Below are positions 679-63,970 of a DNA stretch of 64,000 bases, in pieces. The DNA comes from Methyloligella sp. (GTDB taxonomy: Bacteria; Pseudomonadota; Alphaproteobacteria; Rhizobiales; HXMU1428-3), in assembly GCA_021604645.1 (NCBI GenBank), contig BQJJ01000011.1, positions 50,371-114,370 on the forward strand, in the 5' to 3' direction. The position numbers and the translations under genes are program-made. The stretch's first letter is position 1, and each line of letters begins with the position of its first letter. The notes beneath the pieces are model-generated. The model was not told where the DNA came from. It saw only the letters and a program-made list of their open reading frames with translations, and did no database searches.

Positions 679-2355
679 TTAAGGTCGCCGGCCCGTAGAC
701 ATATTCGCCAAATACCGGCCAGACGCCCAACCAGAAACATTTTTCCAGTTAACAATACACCAACGGCTTTTTCGTGACCCGATTGACTTACACTGACGCA
801 CAGTAACATTTTTCCCATTATGAGGAATCCGCCCAACGATCGCATATTTTGTCGAAGGCCCGCGGCGAACATTTAATTTATCCGGATATGTATGATCAAT
901 CACCCGGTAATACTTGCTAGCAGAACCACCAACAGGTTTGCGATCATTATAAGTTAAGTACTTGCCAGAAGCCCAACCACTTACACAACGATACTTTACC
1001 AAACACCAGTTTCGAGACGTACATTCAACCCGCCGCACACCAGTACCATGAGGAGGAATTGCTCCCACAATCGGATAACGAGTAGAAGGTCCCTGGCGCA
1101 CATTTAAAACATCATCAGAGCGAATATCAATCACACGCCATTTCCCATGCGGATGACCGCAATATTGACGCGTCTTTTTTATTTCTTTAGGAGGCACAAC
1201 ATAAGCCGTCTGCAAACTCTTCAAACGGGCCTTTGCTTCACCCTTATAATCCCCATCAGGAAACGCTGCCAAATACCGCCGATAGCCAGAAGCTTTATTT
1301 TGTTTTTTTATCCGTTGCCACATTTTATCATCCGCAATACTACGAATAATCTGGCGCACACGGGCTGCATTTTCATGTTTTGGAAATGTGCGCAAAAAAG
1401 ATTTATACCCATCAAGCGTATTATCTTCGACAGCTTTTAAATAAGCCAATTGCGCATCAGGCGCGCGTTCTTCCGGCTTCACTTCTCCAGGTTCAACAAC
1501 ATCTTCAATTTTAGGTTTCGCTTCAACTTCAACTTTCGGTCGCGTCTCACTTCCTTCAGGTAAAAAGTAAAAGTCACCCGTAAGCGAAGAACTCTCCCAA
1601 GGGGTTTGAGTTTCTTTCGTCTCCTCATGAACTTGCAACCGCACCCGCTTAAATACCCGCTCAATCGTCAAACCAGGTTCTTGCATCGTCTTCACCAAAG
1701 CAGCAGTATATGGAGAGTTCTCCCCCTCACCATCAGCAGCCACATCACCAGGTGACGTCGCATAGGCAATCAAAGAGCCCTTAGGCGCATTAATCCGCGC
1801 CAACCCGCGCGATAAAGACCGAGTTGAAGATTTAAAAGGATTATCACGGCACGCGTCTAGAACAACCACATTGAAACCATTGCCAGCGACATTCATCGCA
1901 TTTGTCACAACTTCAAGGTCTATAGATTCAATCTCCACATCAACAGCAGATGAGATTTTCGCACTCACTGGAATAAGGTAATTCCGCCCACCAACTTGCA
2001 CACCATGCCCGGCATAATAAAACAATCCAACCGTACCGCGACCACCAGCTTCTAATTTCTGCGCAAAAGTTTTAATCGCGCGTTTCATATCATTTTGAGA
2101 AAGGTCCAACGAAGAGATAACATCAAACCCAAGTTCTTTCAGAACTTTCGTCATCACAAGCGCATCATTTTTAGGATTATCAAGCGGAGATGTATGTTGA
2201 TATGCCGAGTTACCAATAACAAGAGCGACCCGCCCTGTTTCAGCAAGCGCCGAATTAGTAAAATTCAAAAAACCCAAAGCAACCAAAGATATAAAAATAA
2301 AACGCACCATCAGCCAATTCCCCAAAAACCGGATATGAAACAAAACAATAATCAA
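679..2355 (-). CDS. Secreted caspase-like (peptidase C14) protein with C-terminal SH3-like repeats
   Basis: RVALVIGNSAYQ, YYAGHGVQVGGRNYL (His), VVVLDACRDNPF (Cys); two C-terminal repeats 'YRVIDHTYPDKLNVRRGPSTKYAIVGRIPHNG...VSGWASGRYL' typical of SH3b; N-terminal signal-like segment. Confidence 0.88.
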   Translation of the reverse strand: MIIVLFHIRFLGNWLMVRFIFISLVALGFLNFTNSALAETGRVALVIGNSAYQHTSPLDNPKNDALVMTKVLKELGFDVISSLDLSQNDMKRAIKTFAQKLEAGGRGTVGLFYYAGHGVQVGGRNYLIPVSAKISSAVDVEIESIDLEVVTNAMNVAGNGFNVVVLDACRDNPFKSSTRSLSRGLARINAPKGSLIAYATSPGDVAADGEGENSPYTAALVKTMQEPGLTIERVFKRVRLQVHEETKETQTPWESSSLTGDFYFLPEGSETRPKVEVEAKPKIEDVVEPGEVKPEERAPDAQLAYLKAVEDNTLDGYKSFLRTFPKHENAARVRQIIRSIADDKMWQRIKKQNKASGYRRYLAAFPDGDYKGEAKARLKSLQTAYVVPPKEIKKTRQYCGHPHGKWRVIDIRSDDVLNVRQGPSTRYPIVGAIPPHGTGVRRVECTSRNWCLVKYRCVSGWASGKYLTYNDRKPVGGSASKYYRVIDHTYPDKLNVRRGPSTKYAIVGRIPHNGKNVTVRQCKSIGSRKSRWCIVNWKNVSGWASGRYLANMSTGRRP

Positions 2356-2507: not shown

Positions 2508-2711
2508 TACGAAGAAGGGAGTGCTCTACTTCAGAGTACGGACATGACGCCAGCGCGGTTGTTAGTGGGCAAACTAAAGCTCAAATAAATGGCGTCCGGT
2601 GCACCAGATCAGCCCGAACGGAGCATAGCGAGTACGGATAAGCTGATCGTAAGAAAAGCACCGCCCCTCGGAGGCCTATGAGCTTCAGCTCATAGAATAG
2701 CCCGTGAGAGA
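2508..2711 (+). repeat. Family A multi-hairpin element, copy 1 (carries two internal insertions)
   Basis: TACGAAGAAGGGAG-[GTGCTCT..AGAGTAC]-GGACATGACGCC...GGCGTCCGGTGC...GCACCGCCCCTCGGAGGCC-[hairpin]-GAATAGCCCGTGAGAGA; same linkers as the copies at 5667, 37153, 41659 and 46043. Confidence 0.85.
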
Positions 2712-5666: not shown

Positions 5667-5779
5667 TATGAAAAAGGAGTTCAGCTCACTTCGGGCTGAA
5701 GGACATGGCGAAGCCCGGTGCGTTGCACCGCACCTCGTAGGCCCCAAGCGCCTTTCGCGCTTGGAATAGCCGTGAGAGA
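5667..5779 (+). repeat. Family A multi-hairpin element, copy 2
   Basis: ATGAAAAAGGAGT-[TCAGCTC acttc GGGCTGA]-AGGACATGGCGAAGCCCGGTGCGTTGCACCGCACCTCGTAGGCC-[CCAAGCGC..GCGCTTGG]-AATAGCCGTGAGAGA. Confidence 0.88.
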
Positions 5780-12238: not shown

Positions 12239-15200
12239 ATGGAAAGAAAAGAAAAAGTGGCTCATTCTCAGTTTGAACTTTTAAAGACCAGAAGGTTTCT
12301 TCCTCTATTCATAACCCAAGCCTTAGGCGCGTTTAATGATAATGGTTTTAAAAACGCTCTCGTTATCCTTGTCACTTATAAATTAGCTGAAGCACAAGGT
12401 TTAAACGGCCCTCTATTTATAACCATTGCTGCTGGTTTATTTATTTTACCCTTTTTTCTTTTCTCAGCCACAGCCGGACAACTCGCTGATAAATTTGAAA
12501 AAACCAAACTCATCCATAAAATCAAATTTGCCGAAATCATTTTAATGCTACTCGCCATAGCTAGTTTCTATTTCGAGTCAGTCACACTTGGCCTCATAGT
12601 CCTCTTTTTACTTGGAACTCAATCTACCTTCTTCGGTCCCATTAAATACGGCATCTTACCTCAGCACTTAACTGAAGATGAACTTATTGGCGGCAATGGC
12701 TTAATCGAGACAGGAACCTTTCTTTCAATTTTGCTAGGCACACTCTTTGGTGGCATCCTCATCCTAATGGATAACGGTCTTATCTATGTTTCCATTGCAC
12801 TACTATCACTCTCAATTGCTGGCTTTATAGCAAGCCTCTATATCCCAAAAGCCGAAGCCCCCTCACCAAACCTAAAAATCAATCCGAACTTTTTAGCTGA
12901 AACCATGAACATAATGCGCATGGCCAGCAAAGATCGAAATGTATTTTTATCTATTTTAGGCATCTCATGGTTCTGGTTTGTCGGAACCATTTTCCTCACC
13001 CAATTCCCAACCTTTGCCAAAGAAAGTTTTTTTGCAAATGAACAAGTGACCAACCTCTTTATCGCAACCTTTACAGTCGGCATCATGGTTGGTTCACTTA
13101 TGTGTAACAAATTATTAAAAGGAAAAATCACAGCCAAATACGTCCCCCTTGCTGCAATAGCAATCACCATTGCAAGTTTAGGGCTTGTTGGCCTCACTTC
13201 CTCCCTCACCATTCCACAACCAGCTGAAGGTACGCTCTATAATGTAACGGAGTTTCTAGAAATATCCGGAGCCTCCCTAGTTCTTTTATCCCTTTTTATG
13301 ATCGCCGTATTTGGTGGTATCTACGCTGTTCCTCTATTTGCTATGGTCCAACATTTAAGTGATCCAAAAGAACTCTCACGCACAATCGCTGGCAATAATA
13401 TTATCAACGCAGTCTTCATGGTCTGCGCTTCACTCCTTGCTATTCTCATGATTAGCTATGGATATGGCATACTTGCAATCTTTACAACTGTGGCCATTTT
13501 AAATGCCTTTGTCGCGTTATATATTTGTAAATTGCTGCCACAAGAGTTAGTAAAATCAATCGGCCGTTTTATCTTTCGCTCGCTCTATCGGGTCGAAGTA
13601 AAGGGTATGGAAAATTATGAAAAAGTCGGCGACAGGGCCGTCATCATCGCCAACCATACATCATTTCTTGATGCCCCGATTTTAGGTTGCTATCTACCAG
13701 ACACGCCTCTTTTCGGCATCAACTCTCACATTGCAGAAAAATGGTGGGTGAAGCCAGCATTTGCATTATTTGATCTCTTCCCTCTTGACCCAACCAGTCC
13801 AATGGCATTGAAAGGTTTAATCAAAGAAGTCGCAAACGGTAAAAAATGCGTTATCTTTCCAGAAGGTCGCATAACACTCACTGGTGCCCTGATGAAAGTC
13901 TATGAAGGCCCTGGTATGATTGCAGCCAACGCAGGTGTAGAAATACTCCCGATCAGAATAGATGGCGCTCAATATAGTCTGTTCTCAAAACTAAAAGGAA
14001 AAATGCGTTTAAGCCTGTTTCCTAAAATCACCATAACAATTCTACCACCTCAAAAAATGGAGGCCCCAGAGGACCTCACTGGTCGCCAAAAACGAGCCAA
14101 AATTGGCCGTGACCTTCACGATGTAATGACCAACATGGTATTTGAAACAAGCAATACAGACAGAACATTGTTTCAAGGGTTACTTGACGCTGCCAAAATT
14201 CACGGAAAATCCTTGCCAATCCTGGAAGACGTCGAACGCAACCCAATGAGCTATAAACGCCTCATTTTAGGAAGCCTCATCCTAGGCAAGAAATTTGAAA
14301 ACTTCTCAAAACCAGGCGAAGCGGTGGGTGTACTCCTACCAAACACAAATGGCACCGTTGCCACATTCATGGGACTACAATCAATCGGCCGTGTCCCCGC
14401 AATGCTAAACTTCTCAGCCGGCCCTGCAAGCATGGTCGCGGCAACCCAAACCGCAGCCATTAAAACAATCATCACATCAAGGCGTTTCATTGAACTCGGG
14501 CGCTTGGAACAAGTTGAGCTAGAATTAAATAAAGTCGCGAAAATTATATATCTTGAAGACATCAAGGAGGATGTATCAACCTCAGATAAACTTCTAGGAT
14601 TGATAAAAACCAGATTGATTTCTTTTATTTACAATCCAAAGAAATACAACAGCACTCCAGATGATACAGCCACCATCCTGTTCACATCAGGCTCCGAAGG
14701 TACACCAAAAGGCGTTGCATTAAGTCATAAAAACTTACTCTCAAATGTCCATCAGATTAGTGCAAAGGTAGACTTCAGCCCCTCAGACACTGTCTTTAAT
14801 GCCTTGCCAATTTTTCATGCCTTCGGTTTATCAGACGGTACGTTACTTCCCCTTCTTTCAGGGGTGAGAACATTTCTCTACCCATCTCCGTTACATTACC
14901 GCATCGTTCCGGAAATGATCTATGACACCAATGCTACAATTATGTTCGGTACAGACACCTTCTTAAAAGGTTACGCAAACAAAGCCCACCCTTACGACTT
15001 CTATTCAATAAGATATGTATTCGCTGGTGCAGAAAAACTCTCAAAAGAAACAAGAACCCTCTGGTCAGATAAATTTGGCATTCGTATTTTCGAAGGGTAT
15101 GGCGCAACAGAAACATCACCCGCCCTTTCATTCAACACGGCAATGGAGTGCAAACCAGGAACTGTTGGTCGCTTAATGCCAGGAGTGAAGTACAGATTAG

Positions 15201-15691
15201 AAAACATTCCAGGCATAGATGACGGTGGACGTCTGTTCGTTTCCGGTCCAAACATCATGAAAGGCTATATGTTCCATGATAACCCTGGCGTTATCCAACC
15301 ACCTGAAGACGGATGGTACGACACGGGAGATATTGTTGACCTTGATGAAGAAGGGTATATCACCATTAAAGGGCGTGCCAAACGCTTCGCTAAAATTGCT
15401 GGTGAAATGGTCTCCCTCACCATGGTGGAACAATTCCTATCAAAACACTGGCCAGAAAATATGCACGGCGTTGTTACCTTACCATGCCAGAAAAAAGGAG
15501 AACAAATTATACTCCTTACTGATTTAAAAAATTTAGAGCGTAGTGAGCTCATGTCAAAAGCAAAAGAAGATGGTTTAACAGAACTCGCCATTCCTAAAAC
15601 CATTCATACAAATGAAACAATCCCAATTCTCGGAACAGGCAAACTAGATCATGTAACACTAAAAACTCTAGCTGCAGAAAAGATGGGATAG
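12239..15691 (+). CDS. Fused MFS transporter / PlsC acyltransferase / AMP-binding acyl-ACP synthetase (LplT-Aas-like)
   Basis: MFS segment (RFLPLFITQALGAFNDNGFKNALV), PlsC motif (NHTSFLDAPIL, FPEGRITLTG), AMP-binding motif (ILFTSGSEGTPKGVALSHKNLL; YDTGDIVDLDEEGYITIKGRAKRFAKIAGE). Confidence 0.93.
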   Translation: MERKEKVAHSQFELLKTRRFLPLFITQALGAFNDNGFKNALVILVTYKLAEAQGLNGPLFITIAAGLFILPFFLFSATAGQLADKFEKTKLIHKIKFAEIILMLLAIASFYFESVTLGLIVLFLLGTQSTFFGPIKYGILPQHLTEDELIGGNGLIETGTFLSILLGTLFGGILILMDNGLIYVSIALLSLSIAGFIASLYIPKAEAPSPNLKINPNFLAETMNIMRMASKDRNVFLSILGISWFWFVGTIFLTQFPTFAKESFFANEQVTNLFIATFTVGIMVGSLMCNKLLKGKITAKYVPLAAIAITIASLGLVGLTSSLTIPQPAEGTLYNVTEFLEISGASLVLLSLFMIAVFGGIYAVPLFAMVQHLSDPKELSRTIAGNNIINAVFMVCASLLAILMISYGYGILAIFTTVAILNAFVALYICKLLPQELVKSIGRFIFRSLYRVEVKGMENYEKVGDRAVIIANHTSFLDAPILGCYLPDTPLFGINSHIAEKWWVKPAFALFDLFPLDPTSPMALKGLIKEVANGKKCVIFPEGRITLTGALMKVYEGPGMIAANAGVEILPIRIDGAQYSLFSKLKGKMRLSLFPKITITILPPQKMEAPEDLTGRQKRAKIGRDLHDVMTNMVFETSNTDRTLFQGLLDAAKIHGKSLPILEDVERNPMSYKRLILGSLILGKKFENFSKPGEAVGVLLPNTNGTVATFMGLQSIGRVPAMLNFSAGPASMVAATQTAAIKTIITSRRFIELGRLEQVELELNKVAKIIYLEDIKEDVSTSDKLLGLIKTRLISFIYNPKKYNSTPDDTATILFTSGSEGTPKGVALSHKNLLSNVHQISAKVDFSPSDTVFNALPIFHAFGLSDGTLLPLLSGVRTFLYPSPLHYRIVPEMIYDTNATIMFGTDTFLKGYANKAHPYDFYSIRYVFAGAEKLSKETRTLWSDKFGIRIFEGYGATETSPALSFNTAMECKPGTVGRLMPGVKYRLENIPGIDDGGRLFVSGPNIMKGYMFHDNPGVIQPPEDGWYDTGDIVDLDEEGYITIKGRAKRFAKIAGEMVSLTMVEQFLSKHWPENMHGVVTLPCQKKGEQIILLTDLKNLERSELMSKAKEDGLTELAIPKTIHTNETIPILGTGKLDHVTLKTLAAEKMG

Positions 15692-26056: not shown

Positions 26057-26285
26057 AAGCCCCATGAACCAATTACGGAACAGAAGGCTTTTCTTTCATA
26101 TTTCAAAAAACAAAACTACATAGGGCCTAGACCCCTAGCTGCTAGGTCCATACTTGAGATCTGTTTCATCAACAAGCAGGAAACCGCTTTGCGCAGGTCA
26201 GCGATTTTTTCTAAAGCCAAATCATTAACTTTAAACTCACCCAAACTCTTAACAAGGTCAGACCAGGCCACAACGTCTTTAAACG
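26057..26285 (-). pseudogene. Decayed partial duplicate of the 3' end (plus terminator) of the iron ABC transporter substrate-binding protein gene at 27003-28136
   Basis: Minus strand reads KDVVAWSDLVKSLGEFKVNDLALEKIADLRKAVS then frameshifts (1-nt deletion) relative to EGVAWSDLVKSWGEFKADDLALDKIAELRKAASLLVDETDLNNGPSS*; flanking AAAAAAGCCCC..GGCTTTTC hairpin also duplicated. Confidence 0.85.
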
Positions 26286-26952: not shown

Positions 26953-27002
26953 TAAACAAGATAATCAAAGTCAAAAATATAAAAGGGACTAGTCCTTAGT
27001 CC

Positions 27003-28136
27003 CTAGCTGCTAGGTCCGTTATTGAGGTCTGTTTCATCAACAAGCAATGAAGCCGCTTTGCGCAATTCAGCGATTTTGTCTAAAGCCAAATCATCAGCTT
27101 TAAATTCACCCCAGCTTTTCACAAGGTCAGACCAAGCCACACCTTCTTTAACAGGATATTCAAAGTTCACTTTTGAATAAATCTGCTGAGCTTTTTCAGA
27201 TGATAAAAATTCCATCAATTTAACAGCAGCTTCTTTGTTCGGTGCATGTTTCGCCAAAACCATACCAGACAAATTCACATGAGCGCCGCGCGTTTTGGTA
27301 TTTGGGAAAAGCAATTTAACTGAAGCAGCCCATTTTTTCTGTTCAGGCTTTTTCTCATTATTTTGCATTTTGCCCATATAATAAGTGTTACCAATCGCCA
27401 AATCACATTGGCCAGCAAATACAGCTTTAATCTGAGCCCGATCATTGCCAGAAGGTTTGCGAGCTAAATTCGCTTTTAAACCCTTAAGCCATGTCTTGGT
27501 TTTCTCAGTACCGTTATGAGCAATCATAGACGCAATCATCGCAACATTATAAACATGCTGCCCAGAGCGCATGCAAATTTTACCGCGCCATTTAGGATCA
27601 GCCAACTCTTCGTAACTAATCGCATCTTGGCCAACACGATCCTTAGAAGCATAAACAACCCGAGAGCGAACAGTTAGACCAAACCAGTCACCTTTCGCAC
27701 TTCTGTATTTCGCAGGAATATTGCCTTCAATAGCTGAAGATTTAACCGGTTGAGAAATTCCTTTTTCAACGGCTGCAGATAAACGACCAATATCAACGGT
27801 TAGCAGTACATCAGCTGGGCTTAATTTACCTTCAGCTGCAATTCGCTCGATTAGACCTTTTTTCGCAAAAATAACTTTAGTTTGAATGCCAGTCTGTTTG
27901 GTGAATTCTTCCAAAAGCGGCTTAACCAAATATGGCTGGCGATAGGAATAGATATTCACAACGCCCTTCTCAGTTGCGGCTTTGTCAGCAGCATGAGCTT
28001 CAGTAGCTAAAAAAGTTGAATTTGAGAAAGAGGAGAGAGAAACAACGCCAAAAGTGGCAACAACAAGAGAGTACGAACAAGCTTTAAGCTTACGCTTAAG
28101 AAGCGCAGCAGGAAATAAAAACATATTTTCCTCCAA
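27003..28136 (-). CDS. Fe(3+) ABC transporter substrate-binding protein (FbpA/FutA-like)
   Basis: GVVNIYSYRQPYLVKPLLEEFTKQTGIQTKVIFAKKGLIERIAAEGKLSPADVLLTVDIGRL...CDLAIGNTYYMGKM. Confidence 0.92.
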   Translation of the reverse strand: MEENMFLFPAALLKRKLKACSYSLVVATFGVVSLSSFSNSTFLATEAHAADKAATEKGVVNIYSYRQPYLVKPLLEEFTKQTGIQTKVIFAKKGLIERIAAEGKLSPADVLLTVDIGRLSAAVEKGISQPVKSSAIEGNIPAKYRSAKGDWFGLTVRSRVVYASKDRVGQDAISYEELADPKWRGKICMRSGQHVYNVAMIASMIAHNGTEKTKTWLKGLKANLARKPSGNDRAQIKAVFAGQCDLAIGNTYYMGKMQNNEKKPEQKKWAASVKLLFPNTKTRGAHVNLSGMVLAKHAPNKEAAVKLMEFLSSEKAQQIYSKVNFEYPVKEGVAWSDLVKSWGEFKADDLALDKIAELRKAASLLVDETDLNNGPSS

Positions 28137-37152: not shown

Positions 37153-37303
37153 TACGAAGAAGGAGTGGCACCACTTCGGTGCCAGGACATGGCAGCAGGG
37201 CTGCCCGGCGCTTAGCGCCGCACAGTGCGGTTGCTAGTGGGCAACCCAAGCACAGCTAAAATGGAGGCCCATGAGCTTCAGCTCATGGAATAGCCGTGAG
37301 AGA
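37153..37303 (+). repeat. Family A multi-hairpin element, copy 3 (with a family B element inserted)
   Basis: TACGAAGAAGGAG-[TGGCACC acttc GGTGCCA]-GGACATGGCAGCagggGCTGCC (overlapping) CGGCGCttaGCGCCGCac-[B]-GGAGGCC-[CATGAGC ttca GCTCATG]-GAATAGCCGTGAGAGA. Confidence 0.9.
37225..37262 (+). repeat. Family B hairpin element inside family A copy 3
   Basis: GTGC-GGTTGC-TAGTGG-GCAACC-CAA-GCAC-AGCTAAAAT. Confidence 0.8.
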
Positions 37304-41584: not shown

Positions 41585-41658
41585 GATCTAAAACTCCATA
41601 CAAAATGATCAACAATTGCTTTATTAGAATTCACAAAATACAATATTTTCGCTCTCAT

Positions 41659-41773
41659 TACGAAGAAGGGAGTGCCCTTTCAGAGGCACGGACATGACGC
41701 CTTAAGGCGTCCGGCGCAAGCGCCGCCCATCGGAGGGCTTTTCGCTGTTTTAGCGAAAAATAGCCCGTGAGAC
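41659..41773 (+). repeat. Family A multi-hairpin element, copy 4
   Basis: TACGAAGAAGGGA-[GTGCC..GGCAC]-GGACATGACGCCttaaGGCGTCCGGCGCaaGCGCCGCCCATCGGAGGGC-[TTTTCGCT..AGCGAAAA]-ATAGCCCGTGAGA. Confidence 0.88.
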
Positions 41774-41936
41774 AAAAAAGTGTTTCGTCAATCCTAACAA
41801 AAGCAACGCGCTCTAGCCCCCTAACTATGCCCCAAGGCAGGTTTTTCTGCAATCAACTTATAAACTTGACGCCACACCATTTTCAATACACTGTGCCGAG
41901 CTTCAAAGTGACATTTATTAAGATGATGAATAAAAC

Positions 41937-46042: not shown

Positions 46043-46160
46043 TACGAAAAAGGAGCTCAGCCCATTTCGGGCTGAGGGACATGGCAGCAGAGCTGCCCGG
46101 CGCGTTGCGCCGCTCCTCGGAGGCCCAAGCGCTTTAAGCGCTTGGAATAGCCGTGAGAGA
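46043..46160 (+). repeat. Family A multi-hairpin element, copy 5 (cleanest copy)
   Basis: TACGAAAAAGGAG-[CTCAGCCC atttc GGGCTGAG]-GGACATGGCAGCagaGCTGCCCGGCGCgttGCGCCGCTCCTCGGAGGCC-[CAAGCGC ttta GCGCTTG]-GAATAGCCGTGAGAGA. Confidence 0.92.
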
Positions 46161-58388: not shown

Positions 58389-59276
58389 TTAGCTTACTGT
58401 TTTCTTCAACAAACGATTACGAATTTCATCAAGCTGCTCAAAATTCGTATAGCGAATGCGTAACTCGCCATTCTCACCAGAACCTAATTTAACCTGAACC
58501 TTCAGACCTAATGAATCAGTAAGCTCTTTTTCAAATGCTTTTGTATCCGCATCTTTTTCACGGCCCTTAGTAGATTTTCCTTGAGCACCTTTTAATCCAG
58601 TCTGCACAAGTGCCTCAGCATCACGAACGCTTAAGCCTTTAGAAATAATCTCTTTTACATAGTCTTCAGCATTTTCAACACCAACCAAACACCGAGCATG
58701 TCCTGCAGAAATTTCACCCGAACGGACAAAGCCTTGAATGCTTTCAGGCAATTTCAACAAACGAAGCATGTTCGCCACATGAGAGCGAGACTTACCAATC
58801 ACACTTGAAAGTTCATCTTGCGTATAACTAAACCGATCAACAAGTTCCTGATAGCCAAGAGCTTCCTCAACAGCATTAAGGTCAGCACGCTGAACATTCT
58901 CAATAATCGCAATCTCAAGCAATTGGCGATCTGTTAAGTCTCGAACAACAACAGGAACTGATGCCAACTCTGCCATCTGCGAAGCACGCCACCGGCGCTC
59001 ACCAGCAACAATTTCAAACCCACCTTCAAGACCATTTGATGGACGAACAATAAGCGGCTGCACAAGTCCCTTAGTACGAATAGAATTCGCCAAATCTTCA
59101 AGATCAGCATCCACAAAATCTTTACGAGGGTTTAAATGAGACGGGCGAACCTGTTCAATCGGAACAACACGGTGTTCACCTTCAGTTGGTAAAGGCGTTC
59201 CTTCAGAAGGGGCCACATCCCCAATTAAAGAAGCAATCCCGCGACCTAATCTATTCTTTTGTGCATTTGCAGACAT
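58389..59276 (-). CDS. parB: Chromosome partitioning protein ParB
   Basis: RLGRGIASLIGD; HRVVPIEQVRPSHLNPRKDF; IVAGERRWRASQMA; IENVQRADLNAVEEALGYQELVDRF. Confidence 0.98.
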   Translation of the reverse strand: MSANAQKNRLGRGIASLIGDVAPSEGTPLPTEGEHRVVPIEQVRPSHLNPRKDFVDADLEDLANSIRTKGLVQPLIVRPSNGLEGGFEIVAGERRWRASQMAELASVPVVVRDLTDRQLLEIAIIENVQRADLNAVEEALGYQELVDRFSYTQDELSSVIGKSRSHVANMLRLLKLPESIQGFVRSGEISAGHARCLVGVENAEDYVKEIISKGLSVRDAEALVQTGLKGAQGKSTKGREKDADTKAFEKELTDSLGLKVQVKLGSGENGELRIRYTNFEQLDEIRNRLLKKTVS

Positions 59277-59381
59277 AAAAGCCTCTGCCTTTCTTTTTAT
59301 TCTTATAAATCAGTCACTTATGTGACATAAACTCATAATTTCCCGTAGTCTTAAAACAAATTACTAATGTCCTTTAAGGAC

Positions 59382-60227
59382 TTAAGCAGCCATATATTTT
59401 TTCTCACGCTCAATAATTTCAGACGCCAGCTTAATATAAGAATGCGCCCCCGATGACTTGTGATCGTAAAGCAAAATCGGCTGACCAAAACTCGGTGCTT
59501 CCGCAATACGAATGTTGCGAGGGATCACTGAGTTATAAACCTTGTCACCAAAGAAGTTTCGAACCTCACTCGCCACTTCATTAGAAAGGTTAGTGCGCCC
59601 ATCATGCATGGTCAAAACCACACCTTGAATATAAAGATCAGGGTTCACAGCCGCCCGCACTTCTTCAATTGAATTAGCTAATTGAACAATCCCCTCAAGC
59701 GCAAAAAACTCACATTGCACCGGCACCAAAATAGATTGCGCTGCTGCCATTGAGTTAATGGTCAATATGTTCAAACTAGGTGGACAATCAATGAGCACAT
59801 AGCTAATGCGCTCCTCTTTCACCTTTGCAGCTTCTGCAATCTGTAACCGCGAAATCGCTTCGCGCAAACGAAACGCCCGGTCAGGAACACCGGCCAATTC
59901 AGCTTCTAATCCAGCCAAATCTTGTGTGGAAGGAACAACAGAAAGTCCAGGCACCCGCGTTTGCACACAAGCCTGAGTTAGTAACGCCTCACGGCGCAAC
60001 ACATCACAAACAGAAACAGAGCGCTGATCTTCATCAACCCCAAGTCCCGTACTCGCATTTCCTTGTGGGTCAATATCAATAATGATAACCCGCTCACCCA
60101 CAGCGGCAAGCGCAGTACCTAAATTAATTGCTGTGGTTGTTTTGCCAACACCGCCTTTTTGGTTGGCCAATGCCATAACCCGCACGTTCTGCGGCTCATT
60201 AGCTGGTGAAGAGATCTGTCCGTTCAC
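59382..60227 (-). CDS. parA: Chromosome partitioning ATPase ParA
   Basis: VMALANQKGGVGKTTTAINLGTALAAVGERVIIIDIDPQGNASTGLG. Confidence 0.98.
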   Translation of the reverse strand: MNGQISSPANEPQNVRVMALANQKGGVGKTTTAINLGTALAAVGERVIIIDIDPQGNASTGLGVDEDQRSVSVCDVLRREALLTQACVQTRVPGLSVVPSTQDLAGLEAELAGVPDRAFRLREAISRLQIAEAAKVKEERISYVLIDCPPSLNILTINSMAAAQSILVPVQCEFFALEGIVQLANSIEEVRAAVNPDLYIQGVVLTMHDGRTNLSNEVASEVRNFFGDKVYNSVIPRNIRIAEAPSFGQPILLYDHKSSGAHSYIKLASEIIEREKKYMAA

Positions 60228-60254
60228 CGGAATGCTCCTTTAATCAGGCCGCTA

Positions 60255-60354
60255 TGCGTATCTCTTTTCAAAGTAATTCCCTCTTTTGGGAATAGCCCGG
60301 TTGCCATTTTGAGCTAACAAAGTGGGCAACTGAAGCACAAATAAAAGATACGCA
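60255..60354. repeat. Nested palindromic segment between parA and rsmG, including a B-like hairpin
   Basis: Outer TGCGTATCT...AGATACGCA; inner AATTCCCtcttttGGGAAT-AGCCC and GGTTGCC...GTGGGCAAC-TGAAGCACAAATAAAA. Confidence 0.6.
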
Positions 60355-60363
60355 AAATAAAGT

Positions 60364-61002
60364 TTACGACCTCGGTTTAATATCATTAAGTTTAACTATG
60401 CGCCCCAAAGGATCGGTCAAACTTTCATAAGTCTCGTGACTAAAGTCCCAATCCTGTGATGCCTCTTCAATCTCTGCACGAGTGCCCTTTCCTTTAAGAA
60501 ATACACCTTTTGCTCCCTTTTCAAAAAGGGCTTGTCCAAAAGTCAAAAGAGTATTTAGAGGTTTTAGAGCTCGTGCAGTTACAACATCGATAGATTGGAT
60601 GGTACTCTCAATTGCAAAAACTTCAATTCTACAATTATGTATTTCCACATGCGCGCCAGTTTGCCTGGCAACATCCTTTAAAAACGAGCACTTACGAGAA
60701 TTGGATTCGACCAAATGAACACAAGAACCGTGTTTCTCCATGAGTAAAATGCCCAAAACAAGCCCGGGAAAGCCACCACCAGCCCCCATATCGACAATAA
60801 TTTTCGCCGAATCAAGATGATTGAGGACCTGTGCGCTATCAGCAAAATGCCGATGCCAAATCTCATCTAAGGTATTAGGTGCTACTAAATTCTGCGCTTT
60901 CTGCCACTTGATAAGCAGAGTTTCATAAAGTTTTAACCGCTCAACTGTTTCACGTGAAACATCAAACTGCTTCTGAAACTCTTTAGGCCCCGAAATAATC
61001 AC
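60364..61002 (-). CDS. rsmG: 16S rRNA (guanine527-N7)-methyltransferase
   Basis: FDVSRETVERLKLYETLLIKWQKAQNLVAPNTLDEIWHRHFADSAQ; IVDMGAGGGFPGLVLGI. Confidence 0.97.
   Translation of the reverse strand: MIISGPKEFQKQFDVSRETVERLKLYETLLIKWQKAQNLVAPNTLDEIWHRHFADSAQVLNHLDSAKIIVDMGAGGGFPGLVLGILLMEKHGSCVHLVESNSRKCSFLKDVARQTGAHVEIHNCRIEVFAIESTIQSIDVVTARALKPLNTLLTFGQALFEKGAKGVFLKGKGTRAEIEEASQDWDFSHETYESLTDPLGRIVKLNDIKPRS
60946..60961. promoter_or_regulatory. parS site, perfect 16-mer
   Basis: TGTTTCACGTGAAACA. Confidence 0.95.
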
Positions 61003-61264
61003 CCGCCGCTACTATCCTCTAAATTTTCAATCTTAATTTATGAAAGGAGCTATATCACATCTTAAGGCAACATATGTAATTTAAGTAGCTTCTCCTGGTG
61101 GTTTGCAGGAAAAATTCAGCGAAAATAAAGTCTGGAAAATTTCACGAGGCTGACAATATTGAGTATTAGATGTGGCCCTTAAATTATCGCCAAATAATTA
61201 TACAATTCCGGCTGCAAATAGATCTAGAATGTTTATAACCTGATATCGATAGGAATTAATTGAC

Positions 61265-61561
61265 ATGGAAACAGTTTTTACATTCATACAACTAGTTATA
61301 ATACCTGTTATGGCTGTTTCTATGTTTATAGCTCCATGGATTCAATCTATTTACAAACTATTAGGGGAAATAAAATCCGTTATTTTTTTAGCATTAATAT
61401 TGGTGATTCTACATATTATAGAATTTATTATTGCTGATTTAACTGTGCCAGCAGCTGGGCTTGCAACATTTTTTTCCGGAATCATTTGCTTCGGTTTGTT
61501 TATTTTAGCACTAATACTAGCAATATTTGCACAATCCAGACACTTAAACCAGAAAAAGTAA
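61265..61561 (+). CDS. Small hypothetical membrane protein (98 aa)
   Basis: ~3 hydrophobic segments; ORF intact; opposite strand to rsmG/mnmG. Confidence 0.5.
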   Translation: METVFTFIQLVIIPVMAVSMFIAPWIQSIYKLLGEIKSVIFLALILVILHIIEFIIADLTVPAAGLATFFSGIICFGLFILALILAIFAQSRHLNQKK

Positions 61562-61639
61562 ATTTCTATTTTTGGTACAAAAGCGGCCCCATAAAGCACA
61601 GCATCACGCCACTATCTGATACTATCTAAATAAACAAAA

Positions 61640-61655
61640 TGTTTCACGTGAATCA
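61640..61655. promoter_or_regulatory. parS-like site, one mismatch
   Basis: TGTTTCACGTGAATCA. Confidence 0.85.
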
Positions 61656-61686
61656 TAAACAAGGCCCAAGAGCCCATACCCAACCT

Positions 61687-63627
61687 CTAAGCTGATCGTT
61701 TATCAGAAGCAGTAGCCTTCATTTTACCAGCCCGTTTCAAATGAGCCAAAACCAACATAAGGGCAGCTGGCGTCATTCCATCAATACGCCCAGCTTGCGC
61801 CAAAGTCTCAGGGGCATTTTTTGCAAGCTTAGTTCGAAGCTCCGTTGAAAGCCCTGAGATACCTTCATAAGAAAAGCCAGCAGGAATAGACAACGCCTCA
61901 TCACGGCGAAGAGCTGCAATATCCGCATCTTGGCGCTCCAAATAAACCGCATAGCGGGCTTCGATAATAACCTGTTCAGCTATGCCATCCTCTAAAGACC
62001 CAATTTCAGGCCAAATAGCTGATAAATCTGCCAATGAGACACCCTTATATGAAAGCAATTCAAACGCCGTCCGATGGCGTCCATCCTTCTTGATGGAAAT
62101 TCCGTGGTTTTCAGCCTCATTAGGCGTTAAACTCAGAGATTTAAGAAGATCAATACCCTTCGAAATCTGAGCTTGTTTCACGTGAAACAATGATGCTCGC
62201 TCATCACTAACGAGCCCAAACTCAATACCAACAGGCGTTAAACGCTGGTCAGCATTGTCAGAACGCAAGCGAAGCCGATATTCAGCGCGAGATGTAAACA
62301 TACGATAAGGCTCGGTAACACCTCTGGTGACAAGATCATCAATCATGACCCCCATATACCCATCAGCCCGGCTAATCTTAAACTCTTTATCTGATCCATT
62401 CGCTTTCAAGCCTGCATTAACACCAGCAATTAAGCCCTGAGCTCCAGCTTCTTCATAGCCAGTTGTTCCATTAATTTGTCCAGCTAGAAACAAACCAGGG
62501 ATCTTTTGAACTTCTAACGTTTGAGAAAGCTCACGTGGATCAACATAATCATACTCAATGGCATAACCCGCCTGAGCAATACGAACATCCTCAAGCCCCT
62601 TCATCGTCTTTAAGAAGGCAAGCTGTACGTCCTCTGGTAATGATGTTGAAAGCCCGTTGGGATAAATAAGCTCACTAGTGAGCCCTTCAGGCTCTAAAAA
62701 CACCTGATGAGCTGACCGTTCTTTAAAACGCACCACCTTATCCTCAATAGAAGGGCAATAACGCGGTCCAACACCTTCAATTTGCCCCGTATACATAGGT
62801 GCCTGATCCAAATTAGAAGTAATCAGCTCATGCGTTTCTTCATTAGTATGAGTGATATGACAGCTAATCTGCGGTGTTGTGATCTCTGAATTCAAGAACG
62901 AGAAAGGCTCAGGCGGATTATCACCTGGCTGTTCTTCTAAGATCTCCCAATTTATAGATGCTTTATAAAGCCTTGCAGGTGTCCCTGTCTTAAGGCGGCC
63001 AATACGTAAGCCAGTATCATAGAGCCGGTCAGCCAGTTTAATCGCTGGCGCTTCACCAATTCGCCCAGCAGGCGTGCGCTCAGTACCTCGGTGAATTTCA
63101 CCGCGAAGGAACGTCCCCGTTGTCAAAACAACAGCACCAGCTCTATAAGTTTCACCATCAGCGGTAATTACACCAACACAAGTGCCATCTTCAATGAGCA
63201 AATCATCAACCGGCTGAGCTACAACAAACAGATTGTCCTGCGCCAATATCCCTTCTTGCATAGCAGCGCGGTATAATTCACGGTCAGCCTGGGCACGTGG
63301 ACCTTGCACAGCAGGCCCTTTCGAGCGGTTAAGAACACGAAATTGAATACCAGCCTTATCAATAACACGCCCCATCAAACCATCAAGCGCATCGATTTCG
63401 CGTACCAGATGTCCTTTACCCAATCCACCAATCGCAGGATTACATGACATCTCACCAATCGTCTCAAACTTATGAGTAATGAGCGCTGTCTTTGCGCCCA
63501 TGCGCGCTGAAGCACTGGCCGCTTCTGTTCCAGCATGACCACCACCAACAACAATCACATCAAAAGATACATCACCTGATACGATGTCTTTGTGAGAACC
63601 TGGCTCAGTGAGCAAAGTCATATGCAA
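61687..63627 (-). CDS. mnmG: tRNA uridine-5-carboxymethylaminomethyl(34) synthesis enzyme MnmG
   Basis: [74 protein letters not shown]. Confidence 0.98.
62174..62189. promoter_or_regulatory. parS site, perfect 16-mer, inside mnmG coding sequence
   Basis: TGTTTCACGTGAAACA. Confidence 0.95.
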
Positions 63628-63954
63628 AATCCTTAATTTAAAAAGTAATCTGGAAACTGGATTTAACTATATAAGAGTTATGTATCTCTAAAGTTATAAA
63701 TTCCAAGCAGTTTCAAATTTCGAGCCAATACAACGCCATTATAAATGATAAAGAATGTAGGCAATTGTATATCTACAAAGCTCAAGAAACCGTCTTTATA
63801 TTCTAACAATGGGAAGCAATCAACCAATCGCTCAAAATCAAGCCTATGTCAGGATTCAGAAAACAAAAGAATTCAACAAACATTTAATTAATCAACGTTC
63901 AATTAAATGATACGGAAATCCTCTCTAATGTATTTGTTTTCTACCTGTCTATAA

Positions 63955-63970
63955 TGTTTCACGTGAATCA
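63955..63970. promoter_or_regulatory. parS-like site, one mismatch
   Basis: TGTTTCACGTGAATCA. Confidence 0.85.

Follow-up and report, generated by a model that had tools for sequence, protein, structure and literature searches.

The REP/BIME/REPIN sequences, associated with the enzyme TnpA_REP (RAYT), are high-copy intergenic hairpin repeats of 21-65 nt, mosaic and in some cases found as inverted pairs; their movement is believed to take place at replication forks, in single-stranded form, by the action of Y1 enzymes related to IS200/IS605 (PMC6006769, PMC3116915). Tandem REP arrays of P. fluorescens SBW25 are reported to point forward along one side of the chromosome and in reverse along the opposite side (PMC3116915), and the IS200/IS605 elements IS608 and ISDra2 combine subterminal hairpins with a preference for insertion into the lagging-strand template (PMC6006769). 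Other described repeats include (i) the alphaproteobacterial CGTC-tagged REPs, high in copy number and devoid of a dedicated transposase (PMC3733652); (ii) the RIMEs, intergenic mosaics of the rhizobial order (PMC2573895); and (iii) BRE, a beta-proteobacterial intergenic repeat of about 90 bp that occurs in tandem copies and is reported not to be co-oriented with the replication fork (PMC3110155).

Family A, present in the window (the whole 64,000-nucleotide stretch of Methyloligella sp. DNA analysed here), resembles the REP/BIME/REPIN sequences as a short, mosaic, high-copy hairpin repeat that lies between genes and sometimes forms inverted pairs. It differs from them in (i) its length of about 118 nt with four hairpins; (ii) the lack of a GT[AG]G foot, the consensus feet being GGAG, GGAC, CAT, and GGC; (iii) the lack of a cognate Y1 gene flanked by the repeat; and (iv) a near-absolute replication polarity. 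Family A shares the replication-strand orientation bias of IS200/IS605 but comprises no ORF, and no TnpA/TnpB source is conserved among its hosts. The CGTC-tagged REP has one stem of 8-9 bp, an unpaired CGTC tag, and a CCA tail, whereas family A displays four stems and no such end tag; its ends also differ from each other (TACGAAGAAGG / GTGAGAGA), in contrast to the terminal inverted repeats of a MITE. BRE is of similar size, but family A, unlike BRE, is co-oriented with the fork. Family A is a new family, REP-like yet lacking the GT[AG]G foot and the cognate Y1 gene, and resembles the RIMEs as an intergenic mosaic of the rhizobial order. The preferred reading, to which we assign a probability of about 0.58, is that of non-autonomous, REP/BIME-like mosaic mobile elements whose insertion takes place at replication forks by way of single-stranded DNA.

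Architecture and distribution of family A

An earlier note on this DNA had described five copies with constant linkers. All five are confirmed at the positions given, with these linkers; they measure about 118 nt and lie on the forward strand, and a covariance model of the family (R1), built from 30 copies of the same genome, recovers exactly these five in the window, with 138.7, 113.1, 75.6, 74.9, and 71.5 bits (Table 1). The greater length of 2508-2711 and 37153-37303 is due to hairpin modules of other kinds, B and C, nested within them, and the account of the 41659 copy is corrected here, as it lies within a MITE-like element. The copy at 2508-2711 is antisense to both flanking genes, and the focal copy has a counterpart at the orthologous place in the congener G002. 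Elsewhere, the window encodes a caspase-like peptidase C14 of the metacaspase type with bacterial SH3 domains (679-2355, reverse strand) and contains a direct repeat of about 150 nt (26133-26282 / 27001-27151; 86-91% identical, 868 nt apart).

Table 1. Features of the window and of the focal family A copy
Feature	Position	Strand	Remarks
Family A, focal copy	46043-46160	+	118 nt; flanked by cbiET-like and hemY-like genes in convergent orientation
5' conserved segment TACGAARAAGGAG, focal copy	46043-46055	+	weaker ACTAACTA motif just before
HP1 CTCAGCCC-ATTTC-GGGCTGAG	46056-46076	+	fold, covariation
Invariant linker GGACAT	46077-46082	+	conservation
HP2 GGCAGC-AGA-GCTGCC	46083-46097	+	fold, covariation
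HP3 CGGCGC-GTT-GCGCCG	46098-46112	+	fold, covariation
Linker CTCCTCGGAGGC	46113-46124	+	CTCCT can pair with 46051-46055, or CUCG with UGAG 46154-46157
HP4 (CCAAGCGCT...AGCGCTTGG)	46125-46145	+	flanking GGC 46122-46124 pairs with GCC 46150-46152
3' conserved tail AATAGCCGTGAGAGA	46146-46160	+	followed by an A-rich run in most copies
Family A copy	2508-2711	+	B nested in HP2 loop, C in HP3 loop
Nested B hairpin module, HP2 loop of copy 2508-2711	2553-2589	+	
Nested C module (GATCAGCCCGAACGGAGC...GCTGATC), HP3 loop of copy 2508-2711	2603-2657	+	
Family A copy	5667-5779	+	between LON-domain gene and rplS
Family A copy (A::B composite)	37153-37303	+	between cobN-like and cobA-like genes
Nested B hairpin module, HP3-HP4 linker of copy 37153-37303	37224-37263	+	
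Family A copy	41659-41774	+	between divergent cobD-like and DUF1636 genes
MITE-like carrier of 41659 copy	41605-41816	.	degenerate terminal inverted repeats (GTTGCTTTATTAGAATTCAC ... CAACGCGCTCTAG)
parB-parA-gidB-gidA cluster	58389-63627	-	ori-proximal end of window
parS-like sites	60946-63970		ori-proximal end of window

The predicted fold of family A, the ends of which are placed by conservation alone, comprises the four hairpins, two outer pairings around HP4 (GGC/GCC and CUCG/UGAG), and a short stem enclosing HP1-HP3 (AGG/CCU), the last three pairings going beyond those noted earlier. Across 71 copies, standard pairs account for 94.9% of the pair cells, double-sided changes occur in 25 of the 31 pairs, and the covariation score reaches 0.458, compared with 0.152 ± 0.007 for shuffled and at most 0.072 for slid controls, all of these figures being biased towards R1 because the alignment was fitted to that model. 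At one and the same site, HP4 of the own genome and of a congener can belong to unrelated sequence types, so that part of the covariation corresponds to the exchange of whole hairpins. The covariation is real and partly module swapping; the compensatory stems proposed earlier thus stand as complementary arms that vary in concert, with the qualification that entire hairpins are partly what is exchanged. The reading as an element maintained in the form of a folded, multi-hairpin single strand, beyond a simple REP palindrome, is supported, as is the mosaic structure.

The same covariation would be expected if family A acted as a structured RNA in regulation or mRNA processing, as would the excess of G-U over A-C cells on the paired strand outside the outer helix (74 versus 33), but a similar excess of C>T over G>A appears at unpaired positions. 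No T-run adjoins the hairpins, an observation that also led to the rejection of family A as a terminator. Rfam returns a tRNA as the single match in the window at the gathering threshold and, for the focal copy at a relaxed threshold, Atu_C8 as the best match, scoring 17.2 bits where the cut-off for that family is 50, in agreement with the earlier statement that no known riboswitch or sRNA is recognised. A regulatory role is further weakened by module swapping, by the gain and loss of copies across the genus, and by an orientation that ignores transcription and neighbouring genes (see below), and we consider the RNA reading very unlikely. Between the folded RNA and the folded single-stranded DNA left open by the earlier note, the folded single strand is retained, and a mobile repeat fits the orientation, the site turnover, and the composites better than a role as RNA.

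The focal copy, used as blastn query, finds 46 matches in its own 3.57-Mb genome (best non-self E 4e-35), well beyond what chance would give. The genome-wide and cross-genome covariance-model search outlined in the earlier note discloses many further copies: at least 149 in the own genome, at least 150 in the approximately 90%-identical congener G002, and lower numbers in further families of the Hyphomicrobiales. Within the genus, a search of 41 genomes finds family A in every genus-mate (G001-G007), several with at least 89 matches; within the order, matches at E <= 1e-5 occur in 23 of 199 genomes and 11 of 99 genera. A pattern scan of named genomes places matches in the Hyphomicrobiales, including Hyphomicrobiaceae, Cohaesibacter, Devosia, Tepidamorphaceae, and other MAGs. 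The copies are mostly intergenic (overlap with an ORF call above 60 nt in 10 of 83). Blastn of three queries against 72,556 plasmids gave no family A match, nor did the viral contigs searched.

The second family, B, is a hairpin of about 38 nt, GCGCGGTTGCTAGTGGGCAACCTGAAGCGCNACTAAAA, widespread in the same genomes. Copies of A carrying nested B or C modules at recurring positions (the HP3-HP4 linker, HP4, and the HP3 loop) are found at many loci, which indicates that such composites have multiplied. Families A and B may both be viewed as non-autonomous intergenic mobile elements of REP/BIME type, in which constant linkers connect hairpin modules into mosaics.

Orientation relative to replication

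Orientation was compared with an independent reference, the skew at 4-fold degenerate sites averaged across the genes on both strands, which cancels the effect of gene orientation. In the own genome, each contig displays one prevailing strand and 144 of the 149 copies listed agree with the skew sign (p 2e-36), the lone contradicting stretch (C3:35-55 kb) containing a single forward copy. The AT4 skew runs from +0.16 to +0.31 where copies are forward and, in the four stretches whose copies are reverse, lies between -0.15 and -0.28. The rule extends to the congener G004, in which 40 of 43 copies agree with the gene-corrected skew sign (p 3e-9) and all 11 stretches conform, and to G032, from another family, with 24 of 24 copies (p 1e-7) and all nine stretches conforming by GC4 sign. 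Copy density bears no clear relation, by eye, to skew strength in the own-genome match list.

The written strand of family A is the C-rich strand and, the leading strand being generally G-rich, should correspond to the lagging nascent strand. The whole contig to the left of the parAB cluster keeps one skew sign throughout and, given the parAB/parS features at the right end, the replication origin is expected beyond the right-hand end of the window. Transcription, on the other hand, does not set the orientation, since flanking genes lie in the same direction as the repeat 75 times and in the opposite direction 61 times (p 0.26), the flanks are convergent in 23, divergent in 4, and tandem in 41 cases, and copies are found antisense, sense, between convergent genes, and between divergent genes.

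Family B matches the polarity of family A contig by contig. Comparison of own contigs C11 and C14 with C2 of G002 discloses 27 shared B copies, 26 of them polar, and 27 present in one genome only, again with 26 polar; if most of the latter inserted recently, the polarity is established at insertion rather than by gradual sorting. These data bear directly on the possibility of selected orientation sites, in which a replication or segregation factor would bind family A and mis-oriented copies would be purged, as for KOPS or Chi, although the element is long and structured. Near-absolute polarity in two families and the retention of A at 29 of 30 orthologous sites in G002 are what such selection predicts; the one-genome-only B copies, however, are already polar, A sites differ across the genus, one rule is common to two unrelated families, and own contigs C12 (112 kb) and C17 (46 kb) are without family A among the matches listed. 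Purging is accordingly judged distinctly improbable. Contig C17 has a skew near zero and may be another replicon or a terminus.

Insertion at replication forks, the preferred reading, would leave nearly every copy facing the same direction with respect to fork movement. The elements would enter the chromosome most likely via single-stranded DNA, a route that we infer, with hairpins and linkers as recognition marks for a mobilising enzyme, which would explain why the stems change yet stay paired.

The wrong-way copies follow two patterns. Most of those in G002, G004, and G007 pair inversely with a right-way copy a few hundred bases apart, as do 3 of the 5 in the own genome, partners in close inverted pairs. 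In addition, MITE-like flanks (GAATTCA, GCAACGTGCTCTA) border 3 of the 6 wrong-way copies read fully, and copies carried by a MITE would be accounted for if that MITE can insert both ways round. Polarity is not universal, since A-like elements form close inverted pairs in other Hyphomicrobiales, such as Cohaesibacter, Devosia, and BMS3Bbin10 (G018, L116, L147, L149, L168, L169, L178).

Site turnover and the search for a mobilising enzyme

Of 30 family A sites examined in the own genome, 29 are matched by an A copy at the orthologous place in G002; one site is own-only and two are G002-only, so that family A may be inactive at present. B sites are less stable than A sites. Gene order in the cob cluster is conserved throughout the genus while family A comes and goes: (i) the cobN-cobA copy is present in the own genome, G002, and G006 and absent from G003, G004, and G007; (ii) G001 carries instead a copy between cobA and cobQ; and (iii) the cobD-DUF1636 copy is present in the own genome and G002 and absent from the orthologous intergenic region of G003 and from G006. 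These lineage-specific copies could also be losses. The flanks are too rearranged, both between the own genome and G002 and within the cob cluster, to provide a clean empty site for a solitary A copy. At two positions of G002 C2 (joined stretches c11 92740 and c14 42950), precise G002-only insertions display inverted ends of the TAGAGCA/TGCTCTA type and are apparently MITEs accompanied by a short duplication of the TA(G) kind. In G005, the cobN-cobA and cobA-cobQ gaps (L232, C411) contain long, near-perfect inverted repeats with arms of about 70 nt.

HMM searches for candidate enzymes find Y1_Tnp in the own genome (G000; two genes), G018, and G033, and in none of the seven congeners or G032. 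The two own genes (G000:C1:11499-11819 and 15047-15370; L097 and L089) are RAYT-like and flanked by AATTACGGTGACAGT repeats of their own, unrelated to family A. Family A was rejected as the cognate repeat of these genes, which carry ACGGTGACAGT repeats; no A copy lies near either, and the other Y1 loci contribute one weak match (12.2 bits, E 0.046). Reverse transcriptase is found only in G000, where an RVT_1 gene occupies a small contig (C26:807-1514), G004, and G006, and is absent from G002 and G032. Y2_Tnp is absent from G002, G004, G006, G007, and G032, a fragment occurring in G000 only, and TnpB is absent from all nine genomes tested. Y1, reverse transcriptase, TnpB, and Y2 were therefore rejected as a genus-wide driver, being absent from G002, with its at least 150 copies, and from G032, in searches that miss divergent families and on assemblies of 67-100% completeness (99% for G002, 100% for G032).

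An ordinary REP/BIME mobilised by RAYT, the enzyme having later been lost from most of the genus, would agree with the size, copy number, intergenic preference, mosaic modules, and inverted pairs of family A, with its more frequent convergent than divergent flanks, and with the three genomes that do encode Y1. The hairpins, however, lack the GT[AG]G foot, the congeners and G032 lack Y1, the Y1 loci lack a clear A copy, and the alternating orientation described for BIMEs (PMC2817692) is exceptional in family A; such a history is unlikely. Spread through RNA, in which a reverse transcriptase would copy an A transcript at the fork in the manner of a small SINE, could account for the structured element, the A-rich 3' flank, and the replication-strand polarity. 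The A-rich flank is nevertheless short, the genome is A-rich on the same strand, and neither G002 nor G032 encodes the enzyme, which makes this route far-fetched.

The mobilising enzyme of the preferred single-stranded-DNA insertion would be an unrecognised one, one since lost, or a host protein. A fork-coupled spread of A and B that dispenses with every known single-strand transposase, reverse transcriptase, and TnpB-type system, driven by an unrecognised enzyme or by host replication proteins alone and yielding insertions of nearly perfect strand polarity, is a tentative and somewhat doubtful proposal.

A replication orientation bias is known for IS200/IS605, and no report was found, in the literature searched, of an intergenic repeat in high copy number with a polarity of about 97% across the chromosome. 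Family A resembles a strongly covarying RNA and should therefore be masked in RNA searches. The finding raises a testable question, namely how hairpin repeats come to be inserted at forks when the genome encodes no known Y1 enzyme, and such polar repeats are usable as internal compasses for replichores and for contig orientation.
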